DNA of 64,000 nt from Pyruvatibacter sp. HU-CL02332 (GTDB lineage: Bacteria > Pseudomonadota > Alphaproteobacteria > CGMCC-115125): positions 124,001 through 188,000 of the forward strand of contig NZ_BAABWK010000002.1 in NCBI RefSeq assembly GCF_040362765.1, in the 5' to 3' direction. The position numbers and the translations under genes were made by a program. Shown piece after piece: positions 39,282 through 55,682 of the stretch; the stretch's first letter is position 1; every line of letters starts with the position of its first letter. The notes below the pieces were generated by a model. That model did no database searches. It worked only from the letters and a program-made list of their open reading frames with translations, and was not told the origin of the DNA.

Positions 39282-39358
39282 CGGAGCGTAGCGCAGCCTG
39301 GTAGCGCACTTGTCTGGGGGACAAGGGGTCGTCGGTTCAAATCCGGCCGCTCCGACCA
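39282..39358 (+). tRNA. tRNA-Pro (anticodon GGG)
   Basis: A 77-nucleotide cloverleaf. The acceptor stem CGGAGCG (39282-39288) pairs with CGCTCCG (39348-39354), followed by A and an encoded CCA. The anticodon stem CTTGT/ACAAG encloses the loop CTGGGGG, anticodon GGG. The T-arm contains GGTTCAAATCC. It reads CCC/CCU proline codons. Confidence 0.97.
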
Positions 39359-39421: not shown

Positions 39422-40681
39422 TCAGCGGCGCGCGTGGGTAGCAGGCGGTGCTGCCAGCATCAGGCCCCAGATCATCCCCATCAGCACATACAAATGCCGC
39501 CAGTGGTTGATGTCGATGATGATGGCCTCGGCAATGAGACCGATGAAGCTTGCAAACGCGACGATGAAGACGCCTCGCCTTGGGCCATGCATGGCGTATT
39601 TGAAGCCTCGCACCAGCGTCAGGCCGAAGGCCCCCACCAGGCCCACAAGGCTGATGAAGCCGCCGCTCACAAACACATTCAGATAGACATTGTGGGTGTC
39701 CTGGGCTGCGAGCATTCCCCAGTTGTTGGCGCCGATGCCAAAAGGATTGATCATCGCCATCTTCAGGGCTTCAAACTGGCCGGAAAACCGGCCGCCCTGT
39801 TTGGTGTCATAGGACTGCAGGCCCAGTCGCTGTTCGAGCAGCTCACGCACTTCGGGAATTGTGATGGCCCAGCCGATGGCGAGGGTGAGCATGACGCCTA
39901 GCAGAATGGTGATCATCACGATGCGGCCGCGCTGCCCACGTGTTTCAGGCGCCATGCTGGCCAGCACCGCAAAGGCAGCCGCGGAGAGCATCATGTGCAG
40001 CCACGCGCCGCGTGAAAAGCTGAGGAACAGCCCAAGCACCAGCACTGTTGCAATCGGCCCCCAGAAGAAGACGGCAGGCGTTACGCCGCGCGTCGTCATC
40101 CGCCAGATGGCATAGATGGTGGGCGGCACCAGGAACGGTCCGTATACGTTGGGGTCTTCAAACAGTCCCTTGGCGCGACCTGACCCCAGCAGAATGTCAG
40201 CACCGGGAATGAACCCGAGATAGCCGCCAATGCCCAAGGCAGCCGCGCACAGGCCTGCGAAGATGTAGCCACCCCACAGCGCCTTGAGTGCCCGGTCGGG
40301 TGAGGCCGTCACCACTGCCGTGTAGAACACGAAGGTGAGGGTGAGATATGTCGATGTCTGCAGAAACTTGATCGACATATCGATGTAGCGCGCGCCGGTG
40401 CCGCCGATCATGTAGCCGCACAGAACCAGAACCATCAGACCAAACGGCAATGCCACGCCGGCAGGAATACGCAGACCCAGCATGAACAGCATGCCGGCCG
40501 TTGCGACCATCAGCAGGTCATAGGGTGCAGGTTCGCGCAGCACATAATGAGAGATCGCCATCAGGCAAAACAGCAGGACCGAGGCAAAGGCCGTGTTTGC
40601 GATGTCGAGGCCGTGGCTCCAACGCGCCGACGAAGACATATCCTGCGTCTGCGGTGCTGGATGAGCTGCATAAGCAGACAT
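39422..40681 (-). CDS. O-antigen ligase/polymerase (Wzy-like) membrane protein
   Basis: 419-residue protein with about eleven hydrophobic helices and a large periplasmic loop near residues 280-340 (EVRELLEQRLGLQSYDTKQG) typical of the Wzy_C/WaaL domain. FEDPNVYGPFLVPP and AAQDTHNVYLNVFVSGG are family motifs; the loop His in THNVYL is the conserved one of O-antigen ligases. It would polymerise lipid-linked repeat units exported by the flippase at 47410, or ligate them. It begins 1 base after the GT4 stop, so it is the third gene of the wza-GT4-wzy unit. Confidence 0.88.
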   Translation of the reverse strand: MSAYAAHPAPQTQDMSSSARWSHGLDIANTAFASVLLFCLMAISHYVLREPAPYDLLMVATAGMLFMLGLRIPAGVALPFGLMVLVLCGYMIGGTGARYIDMSIKFLQTSTYLTLTFVFYTAVVTASPDRALKALWGGYIFAGLCAAALGIGGYLGFIPGADILLGSGRAKGLFEDPNVYGPFLVPPTIYAIWRMTTRGVTPAVFFWGPIATVLVLGLFLSFSRGAWLHMMLSAAAFAVLASMAPETRGQRGRIVMITILLGVMLTLAIGWAITIPEVRELLEQRLGLQSYDTKQGGRFSGQFEALKMAMINPFGIGANNWGMLAAQDTHNVYLNVFVSGGFISLVGLVGAFGLTLVRGFKYAMHGPRRGVFIVAFASFIGLIAEAIIIDINHWRHLYVLMGMIWGLMLAAPPATHARR

Positions 40682-40682
40682 G

Positions 40683-41918
40683 TCAGGCCCCGTTGGCAGA
40701 ATGCGGTGTTGCGGGGCTCAACATCTGAGGCACGCCATCGCGAACAGGAAGGCCGGTCAGAGCCGTGCGATAGACGTCATCCACCCCACGCACCATGGTT
40801 CCGACTGAGAAGCGATGGGCAATGTCCTGACGCATCTGTTTTGCAACGGTATCCGCCTGCGCCGGTGCATTCAGTGTGCGGGTGATGGCATCTGCCAGCG
40901 CCAGAGCGTCTCCGGGCGGCACGAGGCTGTCGGCGCGTCCGGCAAAGATTTCCGGGATGCCGCCGCAATTGGTTGCGACCAGCGGCATGGCAGCGGCCAG
41001 TGCTTCCAAAACGATGTAGGGCAGGGACTCTGCCAGGGAGGGCACCACCAACATTCCGGCAGATGCAAAAACCTCACGAGCCGGCATCGCACCGGGAAAG
41101 GTGACCATGGGGGCCAGGCCTAGATTGCAGGCCCGGTCGATGAAATGCTCGCGATCTGGTCCATCGCCTGCGATGACGACCCGCAGATTGCGTCCGCGCA
41201 TGGTTGCCAGCGCATCCAGCAGCACGTCGATGCCTTTCAGCATGCGCAGCTCACCCACAAAGGCGATGTCGTAGGTGCTCTTGCGGTTGGGCAGCGGCAG
41301 AAAGTCTGTTTCGCCCACGCCGTTATGCACGATCTGGGACTTGCCTTTTGGGGCGCCTATCTTTTGCGCGAAGACACTGCGCGCGAACTCGCTTTCAAAA
41401 ATGAAGGCGTCGGTTCGGCTGTTCAGCAGTTTTTCGATGGCGAGATACGCCATGCCTGAAAGAGACGTGGCGTCATAGTGCAGTGATCCACCATGAGGTG
41501 TGTAGATGGAGCGCGCTCTGCGGTCCGGAGTGATGTCACTGGGTGGCCGGTGCACAGCCAATCGGGCCATCAGGCCGCCTTTTGCGCCATGCCCGTGCAC
41601 GATATCCAGTTCCTGGCTCGACCGCAGGGCGCGCACCGTCGTAACGGCCGCAATATCTCGGGGGTCCGCCAGGCGCGACATGAAGATGCGCCGCATACCA
41701 AGCGCCAGATCAGGCTCCAACGCAGACAGTGCTTCTTCAGCAGCGGGCGATGTCCCGTTTGAGGCGCACACCACGCCAACACTGTGGCCAGCGGCTACCT
41801 GCCCACGCACCAAATCCTGCACATGACGAAACAGCCCACCGGCAGGTGCGCGAAACACATGCAGTATATTGAGCTTGCGCTCGGTCTCATGCTCGATGTG
41901 CTGGATTGGGTCGGTCAT
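40683..41918 (-). CDS. Glycosyltransferase family 4
   Basis: Cytosolic GT-B enzyme of 411 residues adding a sugar to the growing repeat unit. N-domain: LNILHVFRAPAGGLFRHVQD with the Gly-rich loop, and YTPHGGSLHYD. C-domain: VAFVGELRMLKGIDVLLDAL and the donor-binding EX7E region SLAESLPYIVLEALAAAMPL, then VATNCGGIPEIF. It is 9 bases downstream of the wza-like gene and 1 base before the polymerase gene. Donor and acceptor are unknown. Confidence 0.93.
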   Translation of the reverse strand: MTDPIQHIEHETERKLNILHVFRAPAGGLFRHVQDLVRGQVAAGHSVGVVCASNGTSPAAEEALSALEPDLALGMRRIFMSRLADPRDIAAVTTVRALRSSQELDIVHGHGAKGGLMARLAVHRPPSDITPDRRARSIYTPHGGSLHYDATSLSGMAYLAIEKLLNSRTDAFIFESEFARSVFAQKIGAPKGKSQIVHNGVGETDFLPLPNRKSTYDIAFVGELRMLKGIDVLLDALATMRGRNLRVVIAGDGPDREHFIDRACNLGLAPMVTFPGAMPAREVFASAGMLVVPSLAESLPYIVLEALAAAMPLVATNCGGIPEIFAGRADSLVPPGDALALADAITRTLNAPAQADTVAKQMRQDIAHRFSVGTMVRGVDDVYRTALTGLPVRDGVPQMLSPATPHSANGA

Positions 41919-41927
41919 GATCTGGTC

Positions 41928-42566
41928 TTAGAAAAACCGTTCGCGGATGAAGATGGTGTCGCCGGGCATAACAAGGGCGTTCGTCTCAGCCTTGAATTCG
42001 TTGGAGGCAGTGCGTGTGATGCGCGCGCGTGACGTGTTGGCGCGATAGGTGTACCCACCGGCGATGGCCACAGCCGTCTCAACAGTCATGCCGGAGACGA
42101 ACGGATATTGTCCCGGAGAGTTGACCTGCCCGAGAATGAAGAACGGGCGAAACCGCGACACTTCAACAGACACATTTGGATTGCGGAGCAATGTCTGCGA
42201 CAGGGCCTGCTCAATGGACGTCTTGGTCTGTGCAGTAGACAGCCCGCGCACACCCAAAGGCGGCAGCAGGGGCATTGTGATGGAGCCTGAATCATCGACA
42301 CGGAATGTGCCGGACAGGTTTTCCTGGCCAAACACGATCACACGCAGTTCATCGCCAGCGTCCAGTTGATACTGGGATATGCGTCCGGGCATGGGCGCAG
42401 CATGCTGCATGGGCTGCTGACTGGCGGCCTGAGGATGGGCCGGCATCGGAGCTGCAGCAGCCTGCATCTGCGGTTCATTGGAAAAGCCGCCGCAACCCGC
42501 CAAAACGAGTGTCGACAAGAGGCTCAATCCACCAAACAGTTTTTGATACGCACGCATGGCTGTCAC
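41928..42566 (-). CDS. Polysaccharide export lipoprotein (Wza/BexD family)
   Basis: Outer-membrane export channel subunit, 212 residues (the ATG four residues further in, MRAYQKLF, is an alternative start). Signal peptide with lipobox LVLAGCGG (Cys about 25). Poly_export domain about 65-140: YQLDAGDELRVIVFGQENLS and VSVEVSRFRPFFILGQV, then a SLBB-like repeat INSPGQYPFVSGMTVETAVA-type region and TRTASNEFKAE. It is shorter than E. coli Wza (about 380) because it lacks further SLBB repeats. First gene of its unit, divergent from the Wzc-like gene. Confidence 0.92.
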   Translation of the reverse strand: MTAMRAYQKLFGGLSLLSTLVLAGCGGFSNEPQMQAAAAPMPAHPQAASQQPMQHAAPMPGRISQYQLDAGDELRVIVFGQENLSGTFRVDDSGSITMPLLPPLGVRGLSTAQTKTSIEQALSQTLLRNPNVSVEVSRFRPFFILGQVNSPGQYPFVSGMTVETAVAIAGGYTYRANTSRARITRTASNEFKAETNALVMPGDTIFIRERFF

Positions 42567-42706: not shown

Positions 42707-42826
42707 TTAAGGCCGCTAAAAAACAAGCTGGATCATTTTTGCGCGCGAAGCGATTCGCGGGCGTATGTCCGCTGTCTGCCTTGACCTTTGGTGACCAGCG
42801 GTAATGAGGAGCAGTCTAGCTCGCCC

Positions 42827-45136
42827 ATGTCTTACGGTGTGCCCAATCAGGATCGGGATATGTCCGCAGGCGCTCGACCGGCTGACGGGTCTGCTGGTCT
42901 GGACGTCTGGGCATTGCTGTCGCGCATCTGGGCCCGCAAGTGGTTCCTGATGCTCTTTGTGCTCTCGGGGATTGTACTTTCCTATGCAGCCCTCAGCACG
43001 GTGACACCGCACTACACCGGCGAAGTTCGCATTCTAATTGAAGGGCAGACCCCTGACCCGACCACACCGCTGGCCAATCAGGCTGTGCGCGAAGCGGATC
43101 AGAAGAAGATCGAAAGCGAAATTCAGGTCCTGCTCTCGCGCTCTCTCGCGGACCAGGTCGTGACCCAGCTGAAGCTCGACACATGGGATGAGTTCTCAAC
43201 GACCGGCGGCGGCATGTTTGGGTTCGGTGCCCGCAAGCCCGCCAACCGTGCGGCTGTTATTGGCGCCTATTTCGAACGCCTGAATGTCTATCAGGTTGGC
43301 GAGTCCCGCGTTATCGCGATTGATTTTTGGGCCGAACATCCACGCAGCGCCATGATGGTCGCCAATGCCATTGCTGATCTTTACGTAGGCGGACAACTGG
43401 ATGCCCAGGCTGCCGTGACACGCCGGGCAAGTTCCTGGCTTGATGAGCAGGTGGACAAGCTTCGCGCCCAGGTGCAGGCATCAGAAGCAGCCGTCAGTGA
43501 ATTCCGCCGCAAGTCCGGCATCTTTGAATCAAACGGCAACCTTCTCAAAAATACAGAGCTTGCCGCTCTCAATGCGCAGCTCATCACGGCAAGCGCTGCA
43601 CGGTCTGAAGTGAAGGCGCGCTTGGACAGTGCACGGGCGTTGATGCAGTCACCGGCCGGCATCGAAACATCCTCTGAAGTGCTTGATAACCCGCTCATTC
43701 GCCAGTTGCGCCAGCAGGAAGTGGCATTGCAGCGGCAGATCACGGATCTGTCTGCGGACCTTCTGCCGCAGCACCCCGATATGATTGCGCGCCTGGCCGA
43801 ACTTGATGATCTGCGCCGTGCCATTTCAGCTGAAGTCGGCAAGATTGCCCGCCGTCTGGAAAATGATGTGCGTGTGGCAACCGCGCGTGAGAGAACGCTG
43901 CGGTCATCCATCGCGCGGCTCAAAAAAGATGTAACCGAGGAAAAGCAGCAGGAAAGCGAGTTGCGCTCCCTTGAACGTGAAGCCGTCGCCAACCGTGGGC
44001 TGCTGGAATCGTTTCTTCTTCGCGCCAGTGAGGCAGGTGCCCGTGACGACCGGTCCATTCAGCGGCCTGAAGCGCGCATCATCTCCCGTGCAGAAACACC
44101 TGAAAGCCCATCCTTCCCGAAGAAGGCGCCTATCCTGATGCTGGCCTTCATGGCTTCGCTGACGTTTGGACTGTTGATTGTACTCGCAACAGAAATGCTC
44201 TCAGGCGCGGCAACACCCGCGCCACGCTATGCTGCGGCACCTTCCATGCGTCGGTCCGCGCCGGTAGCGCCTCCACAAACGGTGCCTGCCGCCTATGGCG
44301 GGTCTTACGCCCCTCAAAATGCCTACGCCTATCAGCAGCAGCCTGCGCGGGTTCCGGTGCAGCACTATGCCCAGCAGCCGCAACGGCGCCAGGCGACGCC
44401 TGCTTACGCGGTGAATGGCGCACCTGATCCATTTGAGCCTCAGCAGCGCCCGCAAATGCAGGCCCACATGCAGCCGCAGCAGGTTTACAGATCCGCGCCT
44501 CCGCCAGCTCCGCCACCGATGCCCAACCATGCAGCCCCACAACAGATGGCACCTCGCCAGCCTGTGACGCAGATGATTGCGCGGCTGCCAGCCAATCCAA
44601 CGCTGACGCAGCATGACCAATGGGTGCTGAGCCAGTCAGCTCAGGAAATCCTGCGTTTTATTGCCTCGCGCCCCAGCCGTTATGGCCAGCACGTTCCTGG
44701 TCGTGTGGTGCGTGTGGCATGTGGCCAGTCCGGCCCCAAAGGCCTCGTCGGCCTTGCAAGGCTGCTGGCACAACAGGGGCAGAGTGTTGTTGTCGTGGGG
44801 ACATCGCCACAGCCCACTATGGGTCTGACGGATGTCATGAGCCGTCGGTGTGGCTTCGCAGATGTCATGCAGCCCGACACTCAGTCGACCGCGCGCTTCA
44901 TCGGTTGGGGGTCAATCCCTGTTCACGATGATCCTGCATTGATTGCAAGCGCCATGCAGGCCCTGGCTCAATCAGCACAGATTGTTCTGGTTGGAGATAC
45001 AGATAGCGTCGTTCTGGGCCTTGCGGCTTCGTTCGACCGCGCGTCTGACACGAGCCTCGTTCTCCTGCGGGGCACCAATGCGCCGACACAGGCATTGCCG
45101 CAGACAGATACGGCAGGTCTCATTCAAATCGCCTAA
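42827..45136 (+). CDS. Wzz/GumC-type chain-length protein with a P-loop-less kinase-like domain
   Basis: Inner-membrane polysaccharide co-polymerase, about 769 residues from the ATG at 42827 (TTG 42788, GTG 42791 and ATG 42860 are alternatives). Layout: membrane helix near residue 40 (WFLMLFVLSGIVLSY), Wzz domain, long periplasmic coiled coil (about 195-395), second helix near 430 (PILMLAFMASLTFGLLIVL), a Gln/Pro-rich linker of about 120 residues, and a C-terminal Rossmann-like domain (about 600-769). Where BY-kinases have a Walker A (GKS/T), it reads VACGQSGPKGLVGLA, and no Tyr-rich tail follows. It is probably a structural, catalytically dead partner. Confidence 0.9.
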   Translation: MSYGVPNQDRDMSAGARPADGSAGLDVWALLSRIWARKWFLMLFVLSGIVLSYAALSTVTPHYTGEVRILIEGQTPDPTTPLANQAVREADQKKIESEIQVLLSRSLADQVVTQLKLDTWDEFSTTGGGMFGFGARKPANRAAVIGAYFERLNVYQVGESRVIAIDFWAEHPRSAMMVANAIADLYVGGQLDAQAAVTRRASSWLDEQVDKLRAQVQASEAAVSEFRRKSGIFESNGNLLKNTELAALNAQLITASAARSEVKARLDSARALMQSPAGIETSSEVLDNPLIRQLRQQEVALQRQITDLSADLLPQHPDMIARLAELDDLRRAISAEVGKIARRLENDVRVATARERTLRSSIARLKKDVTEEKQQESELRSLEREAVANRGLLESFLLRASEAGARDDRSIQRPEARIISRAETPESPSFPKKAPILMLAFMASLTFGLLIVLATEMLSGAATPAPRYAAAPSMRRSAPVAPPQTVPAAYGGSYAPQNAYAYQQQPARVPVQHYAQQPQRRQATPAYAVNGAPDPFEPQQRPQMQAHMQPQQVYRSAPPPAPPPMPNHAAPQQMAPRQPVTQMIARLPANPTLTQHDQWVLSQSAQEILRFIASRPSRYGQHVPGRVVRVACGQSGPKGLVGLARLLAQQGQSVVVVGTSPQPTMGLTDVMSRRCGFADVMQPDTQSTARFIGWGSIPVHDDPALIASAMQALAQSAQIVLVGDTDSVVLGLAASFDRASDTSLVLLRGTNAPTQALPQTDTAGLIQIA

Positions 45137-46047
45137 GGCGTGGCAGCTGCGCCGCGCAGCACGTGTCTCTTCACAAACTGTCGCGCCTTCTTGTTGTTCC
45201 GAATGGGATCCACGACTGTATTGAGGGCGTCGTAAGCGGCGGCTTTCAGCTTGTCTTTCCCTGACAGTATTCCGGCGCGGTCCTGCGGCAGTCCAATGCG
45301 CCGTAGCATGTGGTTGACGGTTGCCACCTTGCGCCGCTGCCATGTTTCAAGATCATGAAACGTAATGCCCATCGAGATGGATACCTCGTCACCATTCTTC
45401 ACATAGTGAGGATCGTTGAACGGCACACAAACGGCATCGCCTGCACTCAACTCAAACTTCTGTTCCAGCGGCGCAAAGCCGGGCTGGTACTGGATGTATC
45501 GGCTTTTGGCGGGTGAGAGTTCGGTGTCTTCAGCAGTTGTCGTTGCCTGATGAGGCAGGATGGTGATCGTTTTTTTACCGGACATCTGGAGAAGGAAATT
45601 GTGCTCCGAGTCCAGATGATAGGGCGTGACGCCACCTGGTGAGGTAACGAAACCAAGGGCCACACGATGATCAAAAGCTGAAGTGGCCACACCACTCAAG
45701 CAGGCCAGATCATCAATCAGTTCGTCGAGCAGTGCATTGTAGGCGGGGACATGCTCCATGCCCTTGAGCACGATCCATGATCCGCACGTCTCAATCTCCT
45801 TGATCGTATTCGCAGCGGACAAGCCGTTGAACGGGACATGCTTTCCGGAGACATCGACAGGGAGATTTGCGAGATTGTAATCCACCTTGTCGCGCGGCAA
45901 CTCATTTGCCAGATCAGCCATGGCTTCGAGGCTGAACAAGGGATTGCCTGCCAGATCATGACGCATCTTGAACGGCGACATACCTACATGCATGTCGATG
46001 TTGCCTTCATGAGCTGAGAAATGTTCCGCGTTTGATGTCTGGTTCAT
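45133..46047 (-). CDS. JmjC/cupin-like protein 1 (putative Fe(II)/2-oxoglutarate oxygenase)
   Basis: 304-residue cytosolic protein. The cupin core has the metal facial triad H144-x-D146 in TPYHLDSEHNFLL and distal H214 in FNDPHYVKNG. Lys in MSGKKTITILP is in the place of the 2-oxoglutarate-binding Lys of JmjC/Cupin_8 enzymes. The C-terminal helical tail is basic (IRNNKKARQFVKRHVL). Its start overlaps the GNAT1 stop by 4 bases, so the two are co-translated; its stop overlaps the Wzc-like stop in a convergent manner. It resembles the protein at 50084 in core and tail. Oxygenation of a sugar or acyl group of the polysaccharide is an inference. Confidence 0.8.
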   Translation of the reverse strand: MNQTSNAEHFSAHEGNIDMHVGMSPFKMRHDLAGNPLFSLEAMADLANELPRDKVDYNLANLPVDVSGKHVPFNGLSAANTIKEIETCGSWIVLKGMEHVPAYNALLDELIDDLACLSGVATSAFDHRVALGFVTSPGGVTPYHLDSEHNFLLQMSGKKTITILPHQATTTAEDTELSPAKSRYIQYQPGFAPLEQKFELSAGDAVCVPFNDPHYVKNGDEVSISMGITFHDLETWQRRKVATVNHMLRRIGLPQDRAGILSGKDKLKAAAYDALNTVVDPIRNNKKARQFVKRHVLRGAAATP

Positions 46048-47309
46048 GCTGCTTTCCTTTTCAGCAGACTCTTTTTGATGGTCTTGGTCACTGTCTGGAT
46101 TTGACGTTTTGCAGATGCTGCGGATTTTTCACTGAGGGCTGTGATGCTGAGCAACGCTGCTGATGTTGGTTTGGATGTCGTCAGGGTGATGTCCTGCATG
46201 GCCCGGCGTTCGCGCCACAGGTGATCAATCATCGGGTGATCGGGATTGGCGCAGCTGTCGACCCAGGCAACATCCCTTGACGTCAGGGCGCGGGCGGTCA
46301 TCTCGAGTTCCAGAAGAACGCCGGGCGAGAAGCGCGCATAGCTTTCGTCATAGGCGATCTTGAAAGAGAACAAGCCGTCGCCGTGGGTTCCGTGCCCTTT
46401 GAAGTTGATGATGCTTGCGATCGGTTTGTTGTCCAGACGCAGGGTCAGTGGTGACAGACCGCCAGCGGCTGCAGCCGCGCGACACGCGTCAATGAAGAAC
46501 CGGGCCTCAGCGGGGCGGGTGGCGATGGCCGTGCCGGCCTGACCCTTCCAGCCCGTGCGTTCGAGTTCAAGGAACTCAAGCACCACGCCCTCTACACAGG
46601 CGGGGTCACTCATATCAGGGGTTTCGAAGGTGACGTCCCCTTCGTCGGTAAGACGCCGTTTTAGCCGCCCATATTCCTTGCGTTTCTTTTTCGAGATGCT
46701 GGCCGTCAGATAGGCCTCTGCATCCAATTCGCTGTTCAGGATTGCGCGCTCAAAGGTGCGGGTCGTGGCAATGGTCGTATCGGCCACTTCGCGCACTGCT
46801 TCGCTCACCGGGCCATCGGCGGCCATGTGGTGCAGGCGCAGCAGGGGAATGCCTTCTGCCGCCAGATGCGCCATCAGGCCGGTCACAGCATCTTTTTCAT
46901 AGTCCGCGCGCACCAGCGGTGTTGCGAGGAAGGTATGGATGTGTCGCCAGGGGGCGGCGCATTTGGCGGGAATGCCGCGATAGGTTGAGGTGATCTTCAG
47001 GGGCACCAGCATCACCAGCCGGTTGGCCATGAGCCTGTCGCGAATGGTCAAGACCCTGACCTGTTTGTGCCCGGGCAGATGGGCCAAAGCCGCCAGCAGG
47101 AGTGGCGGTTCATAAAAGGGATTTGGTTCGCTGGCTGAGGCCGCGAGCTCGGTCCATTCGGCGATGAAATCAGCATCCAGTGTTTCGGCGGCCATCCACT
47201 GGCTGCTGAAACGTGGGTTGGCGATTGCGGCTGGCGGCACGGTCTGGCCGCGCAGAAGCGGCGCAGGCATTTGCGCTGTTTGGGGATATTTGGTCTCAAT
47301 CAGGCTCAT
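46044..47309 (-). CDS. GNAT/BioF2-like acyltransferase 1 (CelD-type) of the polysaccharide cluster
   Basis: 421-residue protein from the ATG at 47309 (MSLIETKYPQT), which has AGGA 7 bases upstream; ATG 47339 is an alternative. Two tandem GNAT-like halves of the FemAB/BioF2 superfamily. The central basic helix ISKKKRKEYGRLKRRL is shared in position with the other two acyltransferases here, and FKIAYDESYARFSPGVLLEL matches the acyl-donor region of the Acetyltransf_6 fold. It is the most divergent of the three paralogues. It lies in an operon between the flippase and JmjC-like-1. Likely transfers an acyl or aminoacyl group to a sugar amine. Confidence 0.85.
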   Translation of the reverse strand: MSLIETKYPQTAQMPAPLLRGQTVPPAAIANPRFSSQWMAAETLDADFIAEWTELAASASEPNPFYEPPLLLAALAHLPGHKQVRVLTIRDRLMANRLVMLVPLKITSTYRGIPAKCAAPWRHIHTFLATPLVRADYEKDAVTGLMAHLAAEGIPLLRLHHMAADGPVSEAVREVADTTIATTRTFERAILNSELDAEAYLTASISKKKRKEYGRLKRRLTDEGDVTFETPDMSDPACVEGVVLEFLELERTGWKGQAGTAIATRPAEARFFIDACRAAAAAGGLSPLTLRLDNKPIASIINFKGHGTHGDGLFSFKIAYDESYARFSPGVLLELEMTARALTSRDVAWVDSCANPDHPMIDHLWRERRAMQDITLTTSKPTSAALLSITALSEKSAASAKRQIQTVTKTIKKSLLKRKAA

Positions 47310-47409
47310 TTGGCTTCCTGATGCAGCCGATTGTGCCATTGGGGCACAGACGGTCGGGGGTCATGCTGTTACGCAGCAATCCCAATGCCATGCGGACCCA
47401 AACCCATCC

Positions 47410-48819
47410 CTAGCGTCCTGGACGCAGTAGGAACGCGTTGATGCCGAGTTTTTGGTACACGGCAATGGCCAGCGCCGTGAGGTTCGCGATCATCGCAATA
47501 ATGGTCGCCAGTGCCGCGCCGAGTGTTCCCAATTCAGGTATCAGCAGCAGGTTGAGTCCGGCGTTGAAGACGGCGGAAGCGCAGATGATCTTCGTGGCTG
47601 TCATCTGTCTGCCGGTCATCGACAGAAGATATTCCAGCGGACCAACCGTGCATCGGGCGATGTAACCGATGGAGAGGATTACGAGGATCAAATAACCATC
47701 CTCAAACCCGTCCCCGAACATGCCGAGGATGTATTGGCCAATGACGAGCAGAACCAGCACGCCCATGAAGCTTGGCCAGAAGCTGACACGGTTCACGCCA
47801 TCGAGAAACTTCTGGAGGTCTTCGCGTGTGCCGGACGCATTGATCTCGGAGAACTTGGGAACCGTGCGGGCTGTCGTTGCGAAATAGACAAAACCGATGA
47901 GGCTCGCGGTGCGCGCGGCTGCGTAATAGATGGCGACGGAGGCGGGGTCCTCGATCTGTCCCAGCATGATGACATCTGTGGACGACATCAAAAGGTACGC
48001 GCCTTCAAAAACCAGCATCGGTATGGAAATCATCAGCCAGTAGCCGGCATGGGTGCGGGGCTTGGCGCGAGGTACGGTTGCACGGATGCTGCGCACAAGG
48101 ATGACAGCCTGAACTGCGATGCCGATGGCAGTTGCGGTAATCATGGCAAACAGCGCGGCAATGGCGTCCGGGGCAATACCCACAAGGACCAGGGCACCGA
48201 TGCCGAGCAACAGCAGGAGCGGCCGCATCAGATACGGGATGATATAGGCGAGCGTTACCCAGCCGAAGGCCCGCGCTGTCCCTTCCTGCGTGTCCAGCAG
48301 GGCATAGAGCGGCAGTACAAGAAGTGCCACGGCAAAGGGCAAAACGTAATAGTCATCGATGTAGGGGTGCACGATCCAAAGCGTGATGCCGCCCAGGACG
48401 GATGCCGTGGTCGCTGCGGCGAGCACGATCAGATGCGCTTGCGTCAGCAGTCCCCAAATACGTCCCCAGCGCTGACGGGCCATGTATTCGGGGATAAACC
48501 GCATCAAGGACGTGTTGAGGCCGAGCGGCGCCATGGTGCCGACAAAGATGATCCACGTCCAAACGTAGGCGTAGATGCCAAACTCGAACGCGCCCATCCA
48601 GCGGGCGAGCAGGGCCAGAGAGACGAAGCTGACACAGGCACCAGCCACGCGAATTGCCATGACCGATGCAGCACCGCGCAGGACGGAGGCAAGATCATCG
48701 GCATTGTCCAAGAGGCCTGACAGCTTCGTGGCAATCGGTGCGGGAAGTCTTGATACGATCCTGGCCGTCAGGCGCACAAAGCTGTTTGTCGCAGACTGCT
48801 GTGTGTCGAGGGCGGTCAT
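47410..48819 (-). CDS. Wzx-like polysaccharide flippase
   Basis: Inner-membrane translocase of lipid-linked repeat units, 469 residues with about 12-14 helices (MATE/MVF superfamily, Polysacc_synt). The start at 48819 overlaps the GNAT2 stop as ATGA, so the longer in-frame frame to 48993 is not used. Typical segments: RVAGACVSFVSLALLARWMG at TM1, FVGTMAPLGLNTSLMRFIPEY and IYYAAARTASLIGFVYFATT. It sits at the centre of the GNAT/JmjC operon, tying those enzymes to repeat-unit assembly before export. Confidence 0.9.
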   Translation of the reverse strand: MTALDTQQSATNSFVRLTARIVSRLPAPIATKLSGLLDNADDLASVLRGAASVMAIRVAGACVSFVSLALLARWMGAFEFGIYAYVWTWIIFVGTMAPLGLNTSLMRFIPEYMARQRWGRIWGLLTQAHLIVLAAATTASVLGGITLWIVHPYIDDYYVLPFAVALLVLPLYALLDTQEGTARAFGWVTLAYIIPYLMRPLLLLLGIGALVLVGIAPDAIAALFAMITATAIGIAVQAVILVRSIRATVPRAKPRTHAGYWLMISIPMLVFEGAYLLMSSTDVIMLGQIEDPASVAIYYAAARTASLIGFVYFATTARTVPKFSEINASGTREDLQKFLDGVNRVSFWPSFMGVLVLLVIGQYILGMFGDGFEDGYLILVILSIGYIARCTVGPLEYLLSMTGRQMTATKIICASAVFNAGLNLLLIPELGTLGAALATIIAMIANLTALAIAVYQKLGINAFLLRPGR

Positions 48820-50057
48820 GCAGGGAAGACTGAACGCACGATCCGACGTGCAGACAGTGCCAGGTGGAACAGGGCAGGTGATGCCTTGATCCGTCGCTTG
48901 AGCGTATCCTTGATCCGCGAAGGCAGTGCGGACACGTACCCGGCCAGTGTCAGCGAGATACGGATGTCGATGAGATCCAGATGCGCGTCGCACCAGTCCT
49001 TCTTGTATCCCTCGTCGCCGACCGTGAGGTCAAAGGCCGAAATGTTGTTGGCAAAGCACCAGCGCAGCAACTCATGCAGATGGATTGTACCTGGTGAGTG
49101 GCGCGAGGCTTCACCCTCGGCAACGCTGCCAATCACCGCATAAAAACGGTCGCCCCTGACAAACCCGACATTCCCGGCGATGACGTTGCCATCGAGGGTG
49201 AGGGCGGACAGATGAAGGCTGCTGCGCGCGGTGTGATCATCAATCAGGCCGTGCAGAAATGCTTTCACTTCGTCTGAACCAAACGGGTCAATAATGCCGC
49301 GCTCGTTCAGCCAAACAGACTTTTGCTGAAGGATGGCATCAAGCATGGCGTGCTGGTCTGCCTGCGTCGTGGGGATGGTGAAGGCCACATCACCGCTTTC
49401 GTCCAGCCGCCGGCGACGCTGGCGATCCCGCTTGCGCGTCGATTTGCTGCGCAGGGACGCGTAGAACGCCTCAAAGTCATCATGGTCCAGTGAGATGGCA
49501 TGGCCGGATGAGGGGTGGGCTGCATGCGGAAGCAGGCCAAGGGGATTTTTGAAACCATCGATCTCGGCAAGGGTCTTGGTGAGACTGAAGGCATCAGCCT
49601 TTGGAATACTGGACGCCACAACATTCAAAATGCGGCCCAGCTCTTTGCGTGGCGTCTGACTATTCCATTTGGGATGGATTAGAGGCCCGTGATAGTCCGC
49701 CTCATCCTGGGCAAGCCAAACCAGTGTCGACACACCCATCGCGCGCTCAATGGCGAAGGGCAGGATCATTACCAGTTCGCCGTCCGGGTCGCGAACCAGC
49801 GCAATGCGCGGTTCAACCTGTCGGGCTTTGCCGACAGTTACCATCCAGGCGCTGAGCCATGCGTGTTGTTGAAAGGCCGTTGCGATGGCCGTCTGTTCAA
49901 ACAGACGCCACGCAACAGCGCAATCATCAAGGTTTTGATAGATAGAAACGCGGTACTGCAAATCGTCAATCGACCTGACAATCCGAAGGGGTACATCCGC
50001 CGCCCGCGCAGCGGACGGGGTCATCACAGAGGTTGGTGAAGAAGCGTTCTGGGACAT
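48816..50057 (-). CDS. GNAT/BioF2-like acyltransferase 2 (CelD-type) of the polysaccharide cluster
   Basis: 413-residue protein (MSQNASSPTSVM). N-domain contains AFQQHAWLSAWMVTVGKAR and LVWLAQDEADYHGPLIHP; the basic helix is SKSTRKRDRQRRRRL; the C-domain has RHSPGTIHLHELLRWCF and FDLTVGDEGYKKDWCD, the PF13480-type hallmark. A basic amphipathic tail (LKRRIKASPALFHLALSARR) ends the protein and may bind the membrane. It is close to the protein at 51101 and distantly related to 46044. Operon member between JmjC-like-2 (26 bases before) and the flippase (4-base overlap). Confidence 0.87.
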   Translation of the reverse strand: MSQNASSPTSVMTPSAARAADVPLRIVRSIDDLQYRVSIYQNLDDCAVAWRLFEQTAIATAFQQHAWLSAWMVTVGKARQVEPRIALVRDPDGELVMILPFAIERAMGVSTLVWLAQDEADYHGPLIHPKWNSQTPRKELGRILNVVASSIPKADAFSLTKTLAEIDGFKNPLGLLPHAAHPSSGHAISLDHDDFEAFYASLRSKSTRKRDRQRRRRLDESGDVAFTIPTTQADQHAMLDAILQQKSVWLNERGIIDPFGSDEVKAFLHGLIDDHTARSSLHLSALTLDGNVIAGNVGFVRGDRFYAVIGSVAEGEASRHSPGTIHLHELLRWCFANNISAFDLTVGDEGYKKDWCDAHLDLIDIRISLTLAGYVSALPSRIKDTLKRRIKASPALFHLALSARRIVRSVFPA

Positions 50058-50083
50058 ATGTGCACCCGCCGGATCATCGAGCG

Positions 50084-51013
50084 CTAGGCCCGATGACCCT
50101 CAAATTCGATGTACCCAAGTTCCTTCGACGGATCGACTTCAAAAGTCGTAACGAACTCGCGTTCGTTGGCTTCGAGAAAACCCGTCTTCTTGACCACAAA
50201 AGCCAGACAGCACTTTATCAGCGCGGCAATGCCCTTGGTGTCAACGCTCTTGGGGTTCATGCCGAACAGGCGACGCAGCACACCATTGCCGTAGATAACG
50301 CCATACTGCTTCATGGCTTCCGGCGTGTAGTAAGCCGTTGTCATGGACACATTGAGACCTTCAATGTTGTCCACGCGATGCGGTGCCTGCATCTCCCAGG
50401 ACAGAAGATCGCCTGGCTGCAGATCAAAGACCTGCGCGTGCTTGTCCATGTCCTCGGTGTAGGGGACTTCCTCTTCGGTCTCACGCAGCACAACCTGTTC
50501 GCGAGAGTGATTGGAAATGAACTCTTCCGTGTTCGGATAGAGCCAAAGACGCTTGGCACCCCGGACGTGGCACAAAACGACTGGTGAGATATCGCAATGA
50601 TAAAGCACGCGGGCTGACGGGCTGGAAATCAGAATACCCGTGTTGTGGCGCATGTGCTTGAGCTTGGGATTTTTCTCGTTGATTTCTTCGAAGGAGCGGG
50701 CCACCAGCGCGTGGTAGCGCGGTGCAACTTCTTCCATGTGCTGGAGATTGATCCAGAGCTTGCCACGCTTGATGGCCTCGACCACGTCAGCCCCGGTACG
50801 GCCCTTTATGGAGCCATGACGCCACGTCTCCACGCCATCTGGGTTAAGCGTTGTGGTGTGGATGCTCATATGCTCTTCGGGATAGCCTTCAATCAGCTCC
50901 GCGAGCGCATCATCATCAAACAGACCGCTTTCAACAAAGTGGTGTTTGGCTTGAACCGTGCCGGTCGAAAAACGGTCGGCGTTGTCCTGTGTAATATCCA
51001 GAATGCGGGACAT
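50084..51013 (-). CDS. JmjC/cupin-like protein 2 (putative Fe(II)/2-oxoglutarate oxygenase)
   Basis: 309-residue cytosolic protein. The metal triad is H139-x-D141 in VLYHCDISPVVLCHV and distal H212 in QAPHRVDNIEG. VRGAKRLWLYPN carries a Lys in the 2-oxoglutarate position. The N-domain and the C-terminal helix (GNGVLRRLFGMNPKS) align in pattern with JmjC-like-1. A conserved GDLLSWEMQAPHRV, known from aspartyl hydroxylase-like cupins, supports the oxygenase fold. It lies between GNAT3 and GNAT2 in one unit. The substrate is unknown. Confidence 0.8.
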   Translation of the reverse strand: MSRILDITQDNADRFSTGTVQAKHHFVESGLFDDDALAELIEGYPEEHMSIHTTTLNPDGVETWRHGSIKGRTGADVVEAIKRGKLWINLQHMEEVAPRYHALVARSFEEINEKNPKLKHMRHNTGILISSPSARVLYHCDISPVVLCHVRGAKRLWLYPNTEEFISNHSREQVVLRETEEEVPYTEDMDKHAQVFDLQPGDLLSWEMQAPHRVDNIEGLNVSMTTAYYTPEAMKQYGVIYGNGVLRRLFGMNPKSVDTKGIAALIKCCLAFVVKKTGFLEANEREFVTTFEVDPSKELGYIEFEGHRA

Positions 51014-51100
51014 GCTTGGGGCTCCCCAAAAGTGTCAGTTCACTAAAATCAAAGCCGGTGCTGGCTGTGTGTTCAGCAAAACAGTCGCATAAGGGAGTTA

Positions 51101-52318
51101 CTAAGCCGTGTGCGTACGGTAGTCGTAGAGCCGTTTTCTGAGCTTTTTTGCCAGTGGCCACAGGCGTGGTGACTGCTTGATGTAGCGCTTTGCGGCACGT
51201 GCTTTGCCATGCAGCCAAGCTGCAGCGCGGCCTTTGATGGTTAAGCCAATGTAAACGTCAAAAAGGTCTGTCGAAGTGTCGCACCAGTCGTCCTTGTAGT
51301 CCTCATCACCCACCGTGAAATCAAACACTTTAAATCCACGAACGGTGCTCCATTCAATCAGCTCATTGAGGTGCAACTGGCCAGGCGAGTGGCATCGATA
51401 TTCGCCGTCCGTCATGGTGGACAGAACGTAGTAGTATCGGTCACCCCAGGTGAGGCCCCAGTTGGTCGCAACGATGTCGTCACCGGCTTTGAAAGTGGAC
51501 AGCTGGCATATCTCGGGATGCTGTTCTGCAAGCGCCCGATAGAACGCACGCACATTGGACGTCGCAAAGATGTCGTCAGCGCCCATTTCAGCGAGGCGGG
51601 CACGTTTTTGCTCGATCATTACGGAGATGGCTTCTGACCGCGCCTGAGGTGTGCGGGCGACTTTGAATTTCGTGGGGCCTGCCGCCTGTGTCAGCCGTCG
51701 TGACCGTTGCCGGAGTTTCTTGCGTGACGACGCGCCGCGTCTTGCCTTGTAGAGATCATCAAACTTGGCATTGAGCGTAAGAGAGTGTGTGCCGGCCGGC
51801 CCCCGCTGACTGGGGTAGACGAGCAGGGGGTTAAGCTGGTCGTTCAGAATTTCCGGCATGTCGAGCAGCTTGACCGCGTCAATGCCCCGGGTCAGCCGAA
51901 AGGCTTCATCGAAGAGCTTTTTTGCCGTGTCAGTGGTCAGACCTGCCATCAGGTCCCGATCGATCACCGGGCCTTTGAAGTCTGCATGTTCGTCACCGAG
52001 CCAGAGCAGCGTCCGCAGACCGGAGCGTGTCTCAATGCCCATGGGAAGAAGCGCCCGCATCACGCCGTCACGGCTGGTTGCCATGATGATGTGCGGCGTG
52101 ATTCCACGCGCCTTGCCGATGTATGTGTGCCAATTCGAGACCCAGGCCCATGTCTGGAACACATGTGTTGCACTTCGCTGCTCCAGGTTGCGCCAGACGC
52201 GTTGGAGCGACGCAATATCGCTGGTGGTGCTGAAGACCATCTCGTCAGTCCTCTGGGGATCGACAAGCTGTTGATTATTCAGCGTTTCTGCGTGTTTCAG
52301 GGCCGCAATGGCGTTCAT
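51101..52318 (-). CDS. GNAT/BioF2-like acyltransferase 3 (CelD-type) of the polysaccharide cluster
   Basis: 405-residue protein; the ATG at 52318 (MNAIAALKHAETLN) has GAAGG 7 bases upstream and is preferred to 52393. N-domain HVFQTWAWVSNWHTYIGKAR and LLWLGDEHADFKGPVIDR; basic helix ASSRKKLRQRSRRL; C-domain RCHSPGQLHLNELIEWS and FDFTVGDEDYKDDWCD. The tail AKRYIKQSPRLWPLAKKLRK is basic and amphipathic like that of GNAT2. It is the first gene of the minus-strand unit and is divergent from the deacetylase at 52466. Confidence 0.87.
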   Translation of the reverse strand: MNAIAALKHAETLNNQQLVDPQRTDEMVFSTTSDIASLQRVWRNLEQRSATHVFQTWAWVSNWHTYIGKARGITPHIIMATSRDGVMRALLPMGIETRSGLRTLLWLGDEHADFKGPVIDRDLMAGLTTDTAKKLFDEAFRLTRGIDAVKLLDMPEILNDQLNPLLVYPSQRGPAGTHSLTLNAKFDDLYKARRGASSRKKLRQRSRRLTQAAGPTKFKVARTPQARSEAISVMIEQKRARLAEMGADDIFATSNVRAFYRALAEQHPEICQLSTFKAGDDIVATNWGLTWGDRYYYVLSTMTDGEYRCHSPGQLHLNELIEWSTVRGFKVFDFTVGDEDYKDDWCDTSTDLFDVYIGLTIKGRAAAWLHGKARAAKRYIKQSPRLWPLAKKLRKRLYDYRTHTA

Positions 52319-52465
52319 GACAGTACCTTCGGGGGTCAGATTTCTACTGTTACTCCCGCAAAAAGGGTGCCATTGCGGCACTTGTGACCGCACAGAGCCT
52401 CGTCAATCGCTTGGCAATCAGTGGGCGTTAATCTGTGCGCCTGTTGAGTGCAACCGAGAGTTTGA

Positions 52466-53527
52466 ATGATGCGTTTGGTCGGCAGTGATGTCTTGAAGTT
52501 TGGATTGAGCACCCTGCGTACGACGCGGGCACATCGGGTGCTGGGCAATAGCTGGCGGGGCCTTGGTGCCATCTTCATGCTGCATCGCGTGGTAGAGCAT
52601 GCGCCCCTGCCGCATGATTTCGCGCCAAACCGGGGACTGGAAGTAACACCCGCCTTTCTTGATGCGGTGATCTCCCGGGTTCGCGACCTGGGCTATGACA
52701 TTGTCGATCTGGACGAGATGGTTCGCCGCCTGCGCAAAGGAGGCCCAGGTCCCTTTGCTGCCTTTACCTTTGATGATGGCTATCTCGACAACGCCGAACT
52801 GGCGCTGCCGATCTTTGAGAAACATGACGCGCCGTTCGCGGTCTATGTGGCGTCTGACCTACCGGACGGCATCGCCGATCTTTGGTGGCTGACGCTTGAA
52901 GCGTCCATCCGGGCGCTGGACCATGTGGAAATGGATATCGGGGGAGAGACGATCTCCCACGCTGCGCGCACCGAAAAGGAAATGCGCGGCGCGTGGGAAA
53001 GCGTCTATTGGCGGCTGCGTGACGTCAGCGAGGACGATGCGCGTTACGCGGTTGCTCGTCTCGCAGAACTTGCCGGTATCGACGGACAGTCGCTGGCATC
53101 GTCACTTTCCATGAGCTGGGACGATGTGCGTCGCCTCAATGCTCATCCACTGTGTACCATTGGTGCGCATACAGCGTCTCACTATGCGCTGGCCAAGCTA
53201 CCCATGGACCGCGCACGTGAAGACATGATGGCGGGAACTGCACGACTTGAATCTGAGCTTGGCGAGCGACCAACCCACTTTGCCTATCCCTATGGGGATG
53301 AAGGCTCCGCTGGTCTGCGTGAGTTTGATTTGTCGTCAGAGCAGCGTTTTGCGTCTGCCGTGACGACGCGCAAGGGCCTGCTGTTTGATGCCCATGGCAA
53401 TCATCTGCGGGCCTTGCCGCGGCTATCGCTCAATGGCGATTTTCAGGATGTTGATCTGGTGGAGGTTCTGTTGGGCGGTGCGCCATTCGCCCTTTGGAAC
53501 AAGTTCCGCCGGGTGAATGTCGCCTGA
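52466..53527 (+). CDS. Polysaccharide deacetylase (NodB/CE4 family)
   Basis: 353-residue CE4 esterase. Catalytic motif 1 FTFDDGYLDNAELALP supplies the Asp base and metal Asp; motif 2 TIGAHTASHYALAK gives the two His metal ligands; motif 3 FAYPYGDEGS is present. N-deacetylation of the polysaccharide or a lipid-linked precursor would create free amines, which the neighbouring acyltransferases could use; this link is inferred. No signal peptide is evident, so the site of action may be cytosolic or the protein may be peripherally attached. It is divergent from GNAT3 by 147 bases. Confidence 0.92.
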   Translation: MMRLVGSDVLKFGLSTLRTTRAHRVLGNSWRGLGAIFMLHRVVEHAPLPHDFAPNRGLEVTPAFLDAVISRVRDLGYDIVDLDEMVRRLRKGGPGPFAAFTFDDGYLDNAELALPIFEKHDAPFAVYVASDLPDGIADLWWLTLEASIRALDHVEMDIGGETISHAARTEKEMRGAWESVYWRLRDVSEDDARYAVARLAELAGIDGQSLASSLSMSWDDVRRLNAHPLCTIGAHTASHYALAKLPMDRAREDMMAGTARLESELGERPTHFAYPYGDEGSAGLREFDLSSEQRFASAVTTRKGLLFDAHGNHLRALPRLSLNGDFQDVDLVEVLLGGAPFALWNKFRRVNVA

Positions 53528-53556: not shown

Positions 53557-54051
53557 CTACGGCGCAGGGTAGGGGTGGGCGATCATCTTGGTGCCTTCGA
53601 ACACCGCCTTGTCGGCCACTTCGCGTTCGTTGACGAACACAAAGTCAAAAACCTTGTCGTCATTGACGTCGCTGTGAAGCATGACGATGAACATCTCGCC
53701 GGCATCCGGCTCGTCATCAACCGTGATCTCAACGTCCTTGTTGGTGCCATCGCCCACATAAGTGTGGCCGACATAGATGTCGCCATTTGGTTTACCGCCC
53801 TCGAAGGGATGCATCACCAGCCAGCCATTCCCAGCAATGTGAACTTCAGGGAACGTGAAAGTCGCACCGTCACGGGTCGCGCCTTCGGTGATGATCCAGT
53901 TGTCATCGCCATTGCCCAACGTGATCTGTGGTGCGGCCTCGGCGGTTTCTTCGGCCGGGGCAGCATAGTCTTCCGCCATCAAGGGACCTGCAGCGAGGGT
54001 AAAGGCAGCGGCGATAAGGCCTGTGCGAATGGCTGACAAATTGGCTGACAT
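53557..54051 (-). CDS. Secreted DUF7282-like protein
   Basis: 164-residue exported protein. The ATG at 54051 (MSANLSAIRTGLI) has GGAGGA about 6 bases upstream and gives a signal peptide with cleavage after PLMAED-type junction. The mature domain contains GNGWLVMHPFEGGKPNGD, HTYVGDGTNKDVEITVDD and MFIVMLHSDVNDDKVFDF, a beta-sandwich pattern I recognise as DUF7282. It is acidic and has no cysteine in the mature part. Function is unknown. It lies at the edge of the polysaccharide locus, convergent with the deacetylase. Confidence 0.82.
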   Translation of the reverse strand: MSANLSAIRTGLIAAAFTLAAGPLMAEDYAAPAEETAEAAPQITLGNGDDNWIITEGATRDGATFTFPEVHIAGNGWLVMHPFEGGKPNGDIYVGHTYVGDGTNKDVEITVDDEPDAGEMFIVMLHSDVNDDKVFDFVFVNEREVADKAVFEGTKMIAHPYPAP

Positions 54052-54180
54052 GGGTTTCCTCCGGGTCATTGTTTTTGAACGCCTTTTGCGGCTTGGGATC
54101 AGTGTCAGCCCTTGATGCCGGTGCGTCAAAACAAAAATGACCCATGGTCGGAATGGATCAAAAGGCCAAAAAGCCGCATC

Positions 54181-54410: not shown

Positions 54411-55682
54411 ATGCGTATTCTGTTGATGACGTTGGGGTCACGCGGCGATGTTCAGCCGTTCATCGCGCTTGGGTGTGAGCTCAAATCAGACGGTCACGAT
54501 GTGGCTGTTTCAACGGCTGCCAATTTCACAGACATGATTGAAAAGGCGGGGCTTCGGTCAGCGCCTGTGTCCGTTGACATGCAGGCTGAGCTGGAAGGCT
54601 CAGTCCTCATGGATGGCATGCGGTCTCTGCGCGGCCTGATCCGGGCGTGGCGGGCGTCTCAGGATCTGATGCAGACACAGCTGCAGGATGTCTGGGACGT
54701 GGCACATCGCGAACACCCCGATGTCATCGTCTACCACCCCAAAGCCTTTTCAGCGGTTTACGCGGCGCGCGCGCTGGGCATCGTGGCCATGCCTGTTTAC
54801 CTGCAACCGGCCTATACGCTGACAGGTGCATTTCCAAATCCGATCTATCCCTGGCGTCGCTCCGGATTTTTGACGCGACCACTGAACCGCGCCTTCTTGT
54901 GGCTGACGCGGGTGGGCTACGGCTCGCTCCTCAAGAAGTGGTTTGCTAGGAACAAGGACGTCCCGTCCGATCCTCCCATTGATATCCTCACCGGCTATCA
55001 CCCTGCAGGCACGCAGGTCCCGCGCTTTCATGCCTTTAGCCGACACCTTGTTCCGAGTCCGGATGATTACGGCATCCACGAAAAGACAACCGGATACTGG
55101 TTCGTTGAACCCGATGAGACCTGGCAACCACCAGCCGATCTCGAAGCGTTTTTGAGTACTGGTCCCGCGCCTGTCTATGTCGGCTTTGGCAGCATGCCGT
55201 CGCAGGATGCACAGGCACTGACGCGCGATGTTGTGGCTGCATTGGATATGGCCGGGCAACGCGGCATTATCGCGACCGGGTGGAGCGGATTATCCGGCAC
55301 TGACCTTCCGCCGGAGCACTTTGCATTGGAGAGTGCGCCCCACAGCTGGCTGTTCCCGCGCTGTGCCGCCGTCGTGCACCATGGCGGTGCGGGCAGCACG
55401 CACGAAGGTTTGCGCTGGGGCAAGCCGTCCGTCATCTGTCCTGTGTTTGGCGATCAACCGTTCTGGGGGCACGTGGTGGCTGACCTTGGTGCAGGGCCAG
55501 GCCCATTGAAGCAAAAGAAGATCACCGGGCCACTTCTGGCCGACCGCATCACGCAGGCGCTTGATCCGGCCATTGCATCTGCTGCGGCGGACATTGGTAA
55601 CTTGCTAAGGGCAGAAGGCGGCGCACGTCAGGCAGCAAATATCATCACGGAGATCGCCACTGACCGCCAGACGGTGGACTAG
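54411..55682 (+). CDS. GT1-like glycosyltransferase (UGT/sterol glucosyltransferase type)
   Basis: 423-residue GT-B enzyme. N-terminal MRILLMTLGSRGDVQPFIAL is the hallmark of MGT/UGT and sterol 3-beta-glucosyltransferases. The C-terminal donor site reads PRCAAVVHHGGAGSTHEGLR, then GKPSVICPVFGDQPFWG, matching the PSPG-like region of this class. Such enzymes glycosylate lipids, carotenoids, macrolides or sterol-like molecules with UDP-sugars. It is not obviously part of the polysaccharide units but borders them. The convergent DUF2842 gene overlaps its stop by 4 bases. Confidence 0.9.
   Translation: MRILLMTLGSRGDVQPFIALGCELKSDGHDVAVSTAANFTDMIEKAGLRSAPVSVDMQAELEGSVLMDGMRSLRGLIRAWRASQDLMQTQLQDVWDVAHREHPDVIVYHPKAFSAVYAARALGIVAMPVYLQPAYTLTGAFPNPIYPWRRSGFLTRPLNRAFLWLTRVGYGSLLKKWFARNKDVPSDPPIDILTGYHPAGTQVPRFHAFSRHLVPSPDDYGIHEKTTGYWFVEPDETWQPPADLEAFLSTGPAPVYVGFGSMPSQDAQALTRDVVAALDMAGQRGIIATGWSGLSGTDLPPEHFALESAPHSWLFPRCAAVVHHGGAGSTHEGLRWGKPSVICPVFGDQPFWGHVVADLGAGPGPLKQKKITGPLLADRITQALDPAIASAAADIGNLLRAEGGARQAANIITEIATDRQTVD

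Follow-up and report, generated by a model that had tools for sequence, protein, structure and literature searches.

A polysaccharide cluster of Pyruvatibacter that pairs GNAT-type transferases with putative 2-oxoglutarate oxygenases

Six minus-strand genes of Pyruvatibacter sp. HU-CL02332 (Alphaproteobacteria) lie side by side in the window analysed here, a stretch of 64,000 nucleotides (contig NZ_BAABWK010000002.1, positions 124,001 to 188,000). They encode three GCN5-related N-acetyltransferase proteins (GNAT1, GNAT2 and GNAT3), two JmjC-like proteins (JmjC1 and JmjC2) and a Wzx flippase. We propose, with a probability of roughly 0.55, that within a Wzx/Wzy exopolysaccharide (EPS) pathway they modify and flip the lipid-linked repeat unit, which would be acylated or aminoacylated and then hydroxylated before flipping. 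The membership of the six genes in a polysaccharide pathway is well supported. What appears to be new, judging from the encoded proteins, is a module for EPS modification in which FemX-like and GNAT1-type transferases are combined with 2-oxoglutarate (2OG) oxygenases. A search of open-licence papers found no JmjC or cupin oxygenase in EPS clusters and no described system with this set.

Gene order and recurrence of the GNAT-JmjC pairing

The six open reading frames (ORFs) fill positions 45133-52318 in the order proposed by the original prediction which, read by rising coordinate, is JmjC1 (45133-46047), GNAT1 (46044-47339), Wzx (47410-48819), GNAT2 (48816-50057), JmjC2 (50084-51013) and GNAT3 (51101-52318). 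From JmjC1 to GNAT3 the gaps between them are -4, 70, -4, 26 and 87 bp, and both overlaps (JmjC1/GNAT1 and Wzx/GNAT2) are the ATGA sequences already reported there. The flippase, which matches Polysacc_synt, has 469 residues when counted from ATG, the listed ORF extending to 48993. GNAT3 is likewise given from an ATG, with a GTG at 52393 as an alternative start.

Together with its neighbours the set reads Wzy-GT4-Wza-Wzc-(JmjC1-GNAT1-Wzx-GNAT2-JmjC2-GNAT3)-CE4. Among the four genomes of the genus set, which include that of the window, two relatives (G001 and G002) carry the full set in the same order and the third (G003) keeps the order up to a contig end. In a genome of another family (G323) the cluster is Wzy-GT4-Wza-Wzc-JmjC1-GNAT1-Wzx-GNAT3-CE4, without the GNAT2/JmjC2 pair. 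A second genome of that family, G012, shows Wzy-(unidentified 519-residue ORF)-GT4-Wza-Wzc-GNAT-GNAT-CE4 and no JmjC gene in that cluster. These two layouts allow a core cluster to be distinguished from a separable modification module. Conservation of this order throughout the genus, and in part beyond it, puts the arrangement far outside what chance would give. JmjC1 orthologues lie beside GNAT1 in G323, G325, G147 and G464.

The recurrence of the GNAT-JmjC-Wzx set in other genomes, put forward earlier as a check, proved to be wide, which rules out that the set is unique to one strain. We scored 80 named loci, chosen by their JmjC2 homologue and not by GNAT genes, for an Acetyltransf_6-like GNAT gene no more than 400 bp away on the same strand. 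Such a neighbour was present at 51 of the 80. These loci contained 58 GNATs, of which 53 were adjacent to the JmjC2 homologue on the same strand. In a phylum sample, also not chosen for GNATs, JmjC homologues occurred in 34 of 398 genomes and had an adjacent same-strand GNAT in 26. The background is 124 Acetyltransf_6 matches across 115 genomes (about 1.1 per genome). Since a genome holds a few thousand genes and about one such GNAT, the two would be expected to adjoin by chance in well under 1% of cases. Related genomes make these counts non-independent, although gene order varies between lineages: JmjC-GNAT in Bradyrhizobium, GNAT-JmjC in Brevundimonas, JmjC-Wzx-GNAT1 in G012 and at locus L106, and JmjC-GNAT-Wzx in Aureimonas. 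A Mariluticola plasmid carries, in order, genes for a polyprenyl glycosylphosphotransferase, a WecB/TagA/CpsF-family glycosyltransferase, JmjC, GNAT, Wzx, a hypothetical protein, a GT4 glycosyltransferase and GumC. The Bradyrhizobium pair has GH26, GT2 and Wzy genes just upstream and is followed by a gene on the opposite strand for a DUF5996 protein (L101:12569-13564).

A single case, in G464, gives the strongest indication that GNAT1 and JmjC1 would act at the flippase step: one stop-free ORF of 889 residues comprises a Wzx (38% identity to the window Wzx) followed by a GNAT1 orthologue (35%). This fusion ORF overlaps the JmjC1 orthologue (35% identity) by a 4-bp ATGA, and the order of Wzx, GNAT1 and JmjC1 matches that of the window. 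Among the loci examined for single-chain fusions it was the only one found. Candidate GNAT-JmjC fusions at five loci (L096, L132, L093, L121 and L110) were not supported, the long ORFs apparently lying in another frame than the JmjC match.

Putative oxygenases and two types of transferase

The two JmjC proteins look like active 2OG oxygenases, JmjC1 by sequence only and JmjC2 also by its predicted structure, and both assignments are putative. Their Pfam matches are weak: JmjC1 to JmjC_2 (24.3 bits, cut-off 22) and JmjC2 to Cupin_8 (32.5 bits, cut-off 27.4). Both proteins contain the HxD...H motif noted previously and, in addition, a 2OG-type lysine 13 residues past the aspartate (H144-x-D146, K159 and H214 in JmjC1; H139-x-D141, K154 and H212 in JmjC2), the same spacing as between D201 and K214 in FIH. 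The four JmjC2 residues are invariant in an alignment of 38 homologues. The JmjC2 model (predicted local distance difference test, pLDDT, 92.8) has a confident 2OG-oxygenase fold whose nearest solved relative is YcfD (VIA Z 17.3, 190 aligned residues, root-mean-square deviation, rmsd, 2.9), followed by NO66 (Z 16.6), JMJD5 (15.1), TYW5 (14.8) and FIH (14.4), all five being 2OG oxygenases. A sequence profile of JmjC1 and JmjC2 also picks up JMJD5, TYW5 and FIH (E down to 1.7e-7). Like these enzymes, JmjC2 combines a predicted double-stranded beta-helix fold with the HxD...H facial triad and the 2OG-type lysine; what sets the window proteins apart from them is that they are bacterial, have about 310 residues and are encoded beside GNATs and flippases.

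An aminoacyl group is favoured as the target of hydroxylation because enzymes like YcfD and JMJD5 target the side chains of amino acids, and a hydroxylated acyl chain is possible as an alternative product. The enzymes could instead hydroxylate a sugar or, as YcfD and JMJD5 do, a protein (ribosomal or part of the EPS machinery), and lie near GNAT genes only through a shared service to surface polysaccharides or regulation. This would suit both the stand-alone JmjC2 genes and the nearest folds, YcfD, NO66 and JMJD5, which are protein hydroxylases, but adjacency to GNAT or Wzx recurs in varied arrangements, including beside the Wzx-GNAT1 fusion, and we judge the explanation very improbable.

All three GNATs match Acetyltransf_6 in Pfam (1e-19 to 8e-31). 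They fall, however, into two types, because GNAT1 belongs to a separate clade and lacks an invariant lysine of the other two. The motif said to be common to GNAT2 and GNAT3 is found in both as FDLTVGDEGYKKDWCD and FDFTVGDEDYKDDWCD, in place of which the more distant GNAT1 carries VDSCANPDHPMIDHLW. In the tree GNAT1 and its relatives form a fully supported clade of their own, and K342 of GNAT3 is invariant in 28 GNAT2/3 relatives and missing from all 13 rows of the GNAT1 clade. The two types possibly use different donors. In another alphaproteobacterial family (L160 in G316 and L161 in G133), GNAT1-type genes also occur as tandem pairs that lack an adjacent JmjC gene.

GNAT3, which ends in a basic C-terminal extension, has a predicted structure (pLDDT 91.3) with a tandem-GNAT fold, and GNAT2 is considered FemX-like by homology to it. 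The closest solved fold is FemX (VIA Z 21.4, 296 aligned residues, rmsd 3.4), then FemA (Z 20.8) and the aminoacyl-tRNA-dependent Sba18 (19.5), Sba18 and Sbb17 belonging to the group at 19-21; MprF-type domains follow at about 16-17, and tandem GNATs that use CoA, together with NMT, at about 15. The likeness to the FemABX proteins (FemX of Weissella and FemA) and to Sba18/Sbb17 extends over 268-300 residues (Z about 19-21) and may include a lysine where Lys305 of FemX is expected. Lys305 is the catalytic lysine of FemX (PMC12945691). By arithmetic on the aligned ranges, without superposition, K342 falls near FemX 304-305; searching the PDB by sequence with the GNAT profile returned no FemX match, so that the correspondence follows from the fold ranges alone. 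Structure prediction, suggested earlier for these transferases, has for GNAT3 given a FemX-like fold whose nearest relatives use aminoacyl-tRNA, with the lysine placed by range arithmetic only. Unlike FemABX and Sba18/Sbb17, GNAT3 lies within an EPS cluster; its identity to them is 11-14%, and in Pfam the GNATs match Acetyltransf_6 and not FemAB, their only other match being a sub-threshold DUF7842 (E<=0.1). A FemX-like fold is no proof of tRNA use, since FemX is likewise the nearest solved relative of HfsK of Caulobacter, the donor of which is unknown (PMC5362036).

The GNATs may instead be ordinary acyl-CoA-dependent N-acyltransferases, whose fatty or short acyl chains the JmjC enzymes would hydroxylate to give hydroxyacyl-amino sugars with no part for aminoacyl-tRNA. 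The lack in GNAT1 of the lysine invariant in GNAT2/3 speaks for this, as does its only NCBIfam match, BspF (NF047385), annotated as a crotonyl transferase, although at 164 bits against a cut-off of 775 the BspF label itself was rejected. HfsK, too, is described as an N-acetyltransferase family member (PMC5362036). Aminoacyl-tRNA users are nevertheless the nearest solved folds of GNAT3, with a clear gap in Z to CoA users, and the closest JmjC relatives of known substrate target the side chain of an amino acid or of a tRNA base, which leaves the acyl-CoA explanation somewhat unlikely.

As a GNAT encoded beside EPS genes, GNAT3 also recalls the FemAB XrtA/PEP-CTERM-associated protein (TIGR03019). 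That label was rejected (12.5 bits, cut-off 260) and, in contrast to that system, no exosortase link was seen. We know of no oxygenase partner for the TIGR03019 protein.

The surrounding cluster and the holdfast

By its predicted gene content the locus is a Wzx/Wzy-type polysaccharide cluster, in agreement with the polysaccharide operon first described. Flippase, polymerase, outer-membrane polysaccharide export protein (Wza) and co-polymerase (Wzc/GumC) all occur within it, recognised by Polysacc_synt, Wzy_C, Poly_export with SLBB, and eps_transp_fam respectively. The Wzy-like polymerase (39422-40681), a GT4 glycosyltransferase identified by its family match (40683-41918) and the Wza-like protein (41928-42566) are encoded on the minus strand, and the GumC/Wzc-like co-polymerase (42788-45136) on the plus strand. 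A simple-pattern scan gave no P-loop match in the latter, which has a long Pro/Gln-rich linker and a kinase-like remnant at its C-terminus. On the other side the CE4 polysaccharide deacetylase (52466-53527, plus strand; TFDD at 101, HTASH at 235) is divergent from GNAT3 and is kept in the genus, in G323 and in G012; its protein sequence has no obvious signal peptide. Beside it are genes for a predicted secreted protein of 190 residues (53557-54129, minus strand) with a domain around 'HIAGNGWLVMHPFEGGKPNGDIYVGHTYV' and, adjoining the polysaccharide cluster, for a glycosyltransferase (54411-55682, plus strand) that looks to be of the sterol/rhamnosyl GT1 type (MRILLMTLGSRGDVQPFIALG). Rfam and ARAGORN found a single RNA feature in the window, a tRNA-Pro at 39282, outside the six genes.

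No initiating phosphoglycosyl transferase (Bac_transf, PF02397) was matched in the window, the two that family searches gave for this genome being on another contig, in a second polysaccharide region (L159, G000:C1:815500-835000). Besides these two Bac_transf proteins that region carries ManC, GDP-mannose dehydratases, epimerases and an APS kinase, a gene set which suggests sulfated or deoxy sugars.

The combination of a FemX-related GNAT with a CE4 deacetylase is shared with the holdfast of Caulobacter crescentus, a secreted polysaccharide adhesin modified by HfsK and HfsH (PMC5362036 and PMC8449245). HfsK is described as a FemX-like GNAT, and it is proposed that HfsH exposes amines which HfsK acylates, a scheme with which the genetics are consistent (PMC5362036). 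The window cluster could then be a diverged holdfast (hfs) locus, with the GNATs equivalent to HfsK and its paralogues, CE4 to HfsH, and the JmjC genes accessory. The gene classes are indeed the same (Wza, Wzc, Wzx, Wzy, glycosyltransferase, CE4 and GNAT), and the hfs genes of Maricaulis, Oceanicaulis and Woodsholea have HfsK orthologues clustered with them (PMC5362036). The window CE4, however, misses the HfsH model NF050820 (35.5 bits, cut-off 400), and we consider this origin quite improbable. Two further differences are that Caulobacter hfsK and its paralogues are located outside the hfs core and that the parts of the holdfast accounts at hand include no JmjC/2OG oxygenase (PMC5362036, PMC8449245).

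A proposed modification pathway and its meaning

From these data we infer a donor, a substrate, an order of steps and a cytosolic location for CE4. At the cytosolic face of the inner membrane, CE4 would deacetylate an N-acetyl-amino sugar in the undecaprenyl-linked repeat and so expose its amine, to which the FemX-like GNAT2 and GNAT3 would attach an acyl group that could well be an amino acid. GNAT1 would add another acyl group. JmjC2, as the partner of GNAT2/3, and JmjC1, as that of GNAT1, would act on the transferred group as Fe(II)- and 2-oxoglutarate-dependent hydroxylases, and the decorated repeat would be flipped by Wzx, polymerised by Wzy and exported by Wzc/Wza. A bolder version is a widespread route to hydroxy-aminoacylated exopolysaccharide, with transfer from aminoacyl-tRNA to CE4-exposed amines by FemX-like GNATs, JmjC hydroxylation and direct handover to the flippase (through the Wzx-GNAT fusion in one lineage); in that full form we regard it as rather doubtful.

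Several observations weigh against the pathway proposed here. The tie of the JmjC genes to it by context, claimed from the outset, holds at the 51 GNAT-adjacent loci and fails at the other 29 of the 80, a few of which come from contig ends; with about a third of homologues having no adjacent GNAT, JmjC2 may have other roles. Some near homologues, including that of Maritalea (47%), sit amid unrelated genes, the Hyphomicrobium pair stands alone, with aroA and histidine genes as neighbours and no polysaccharide cluster nearby, and the JmjC2-Wzx-GNAT1 set of G012 lies about 1.8 Mb from its GNAT-GNAT-CE4 core cluster. Predicted structures cover JmjC2 and GNAT3 only among the six genes. In Hirschia, deleting hfsK and its paralogues gave no holdfast-binding phenotype (PMC8449245).

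HfsK-type GNATs shape adhesion strength in Caulobacter, the transferred group being unknown. The module is found in Bradyrhizobium, Methylobacterium, Hyphomicrobium, Aureimonas and the genus Candidatus Phaeomarinobacter, a described species of which lives associated with brown algae (PMC4110880), and strains for genetics therefore exist; Tepidicaulis, like Bradyrhizobium and Methylobacterium, offers a culturable carrier of the module. With an oxygenase as recurrent partner, the range of products narrows to acyl or aminoacyl groups that can be hydroxylated, which can be tested directly by mass spectrometry. If the proposed pathway is correct, JmjC enzymes, for which we know of no example in glycan decoration, would gain a role there, and the chemistry of the surface polymer would be tied to the availability of oxygen and 2-oxoglutarate.

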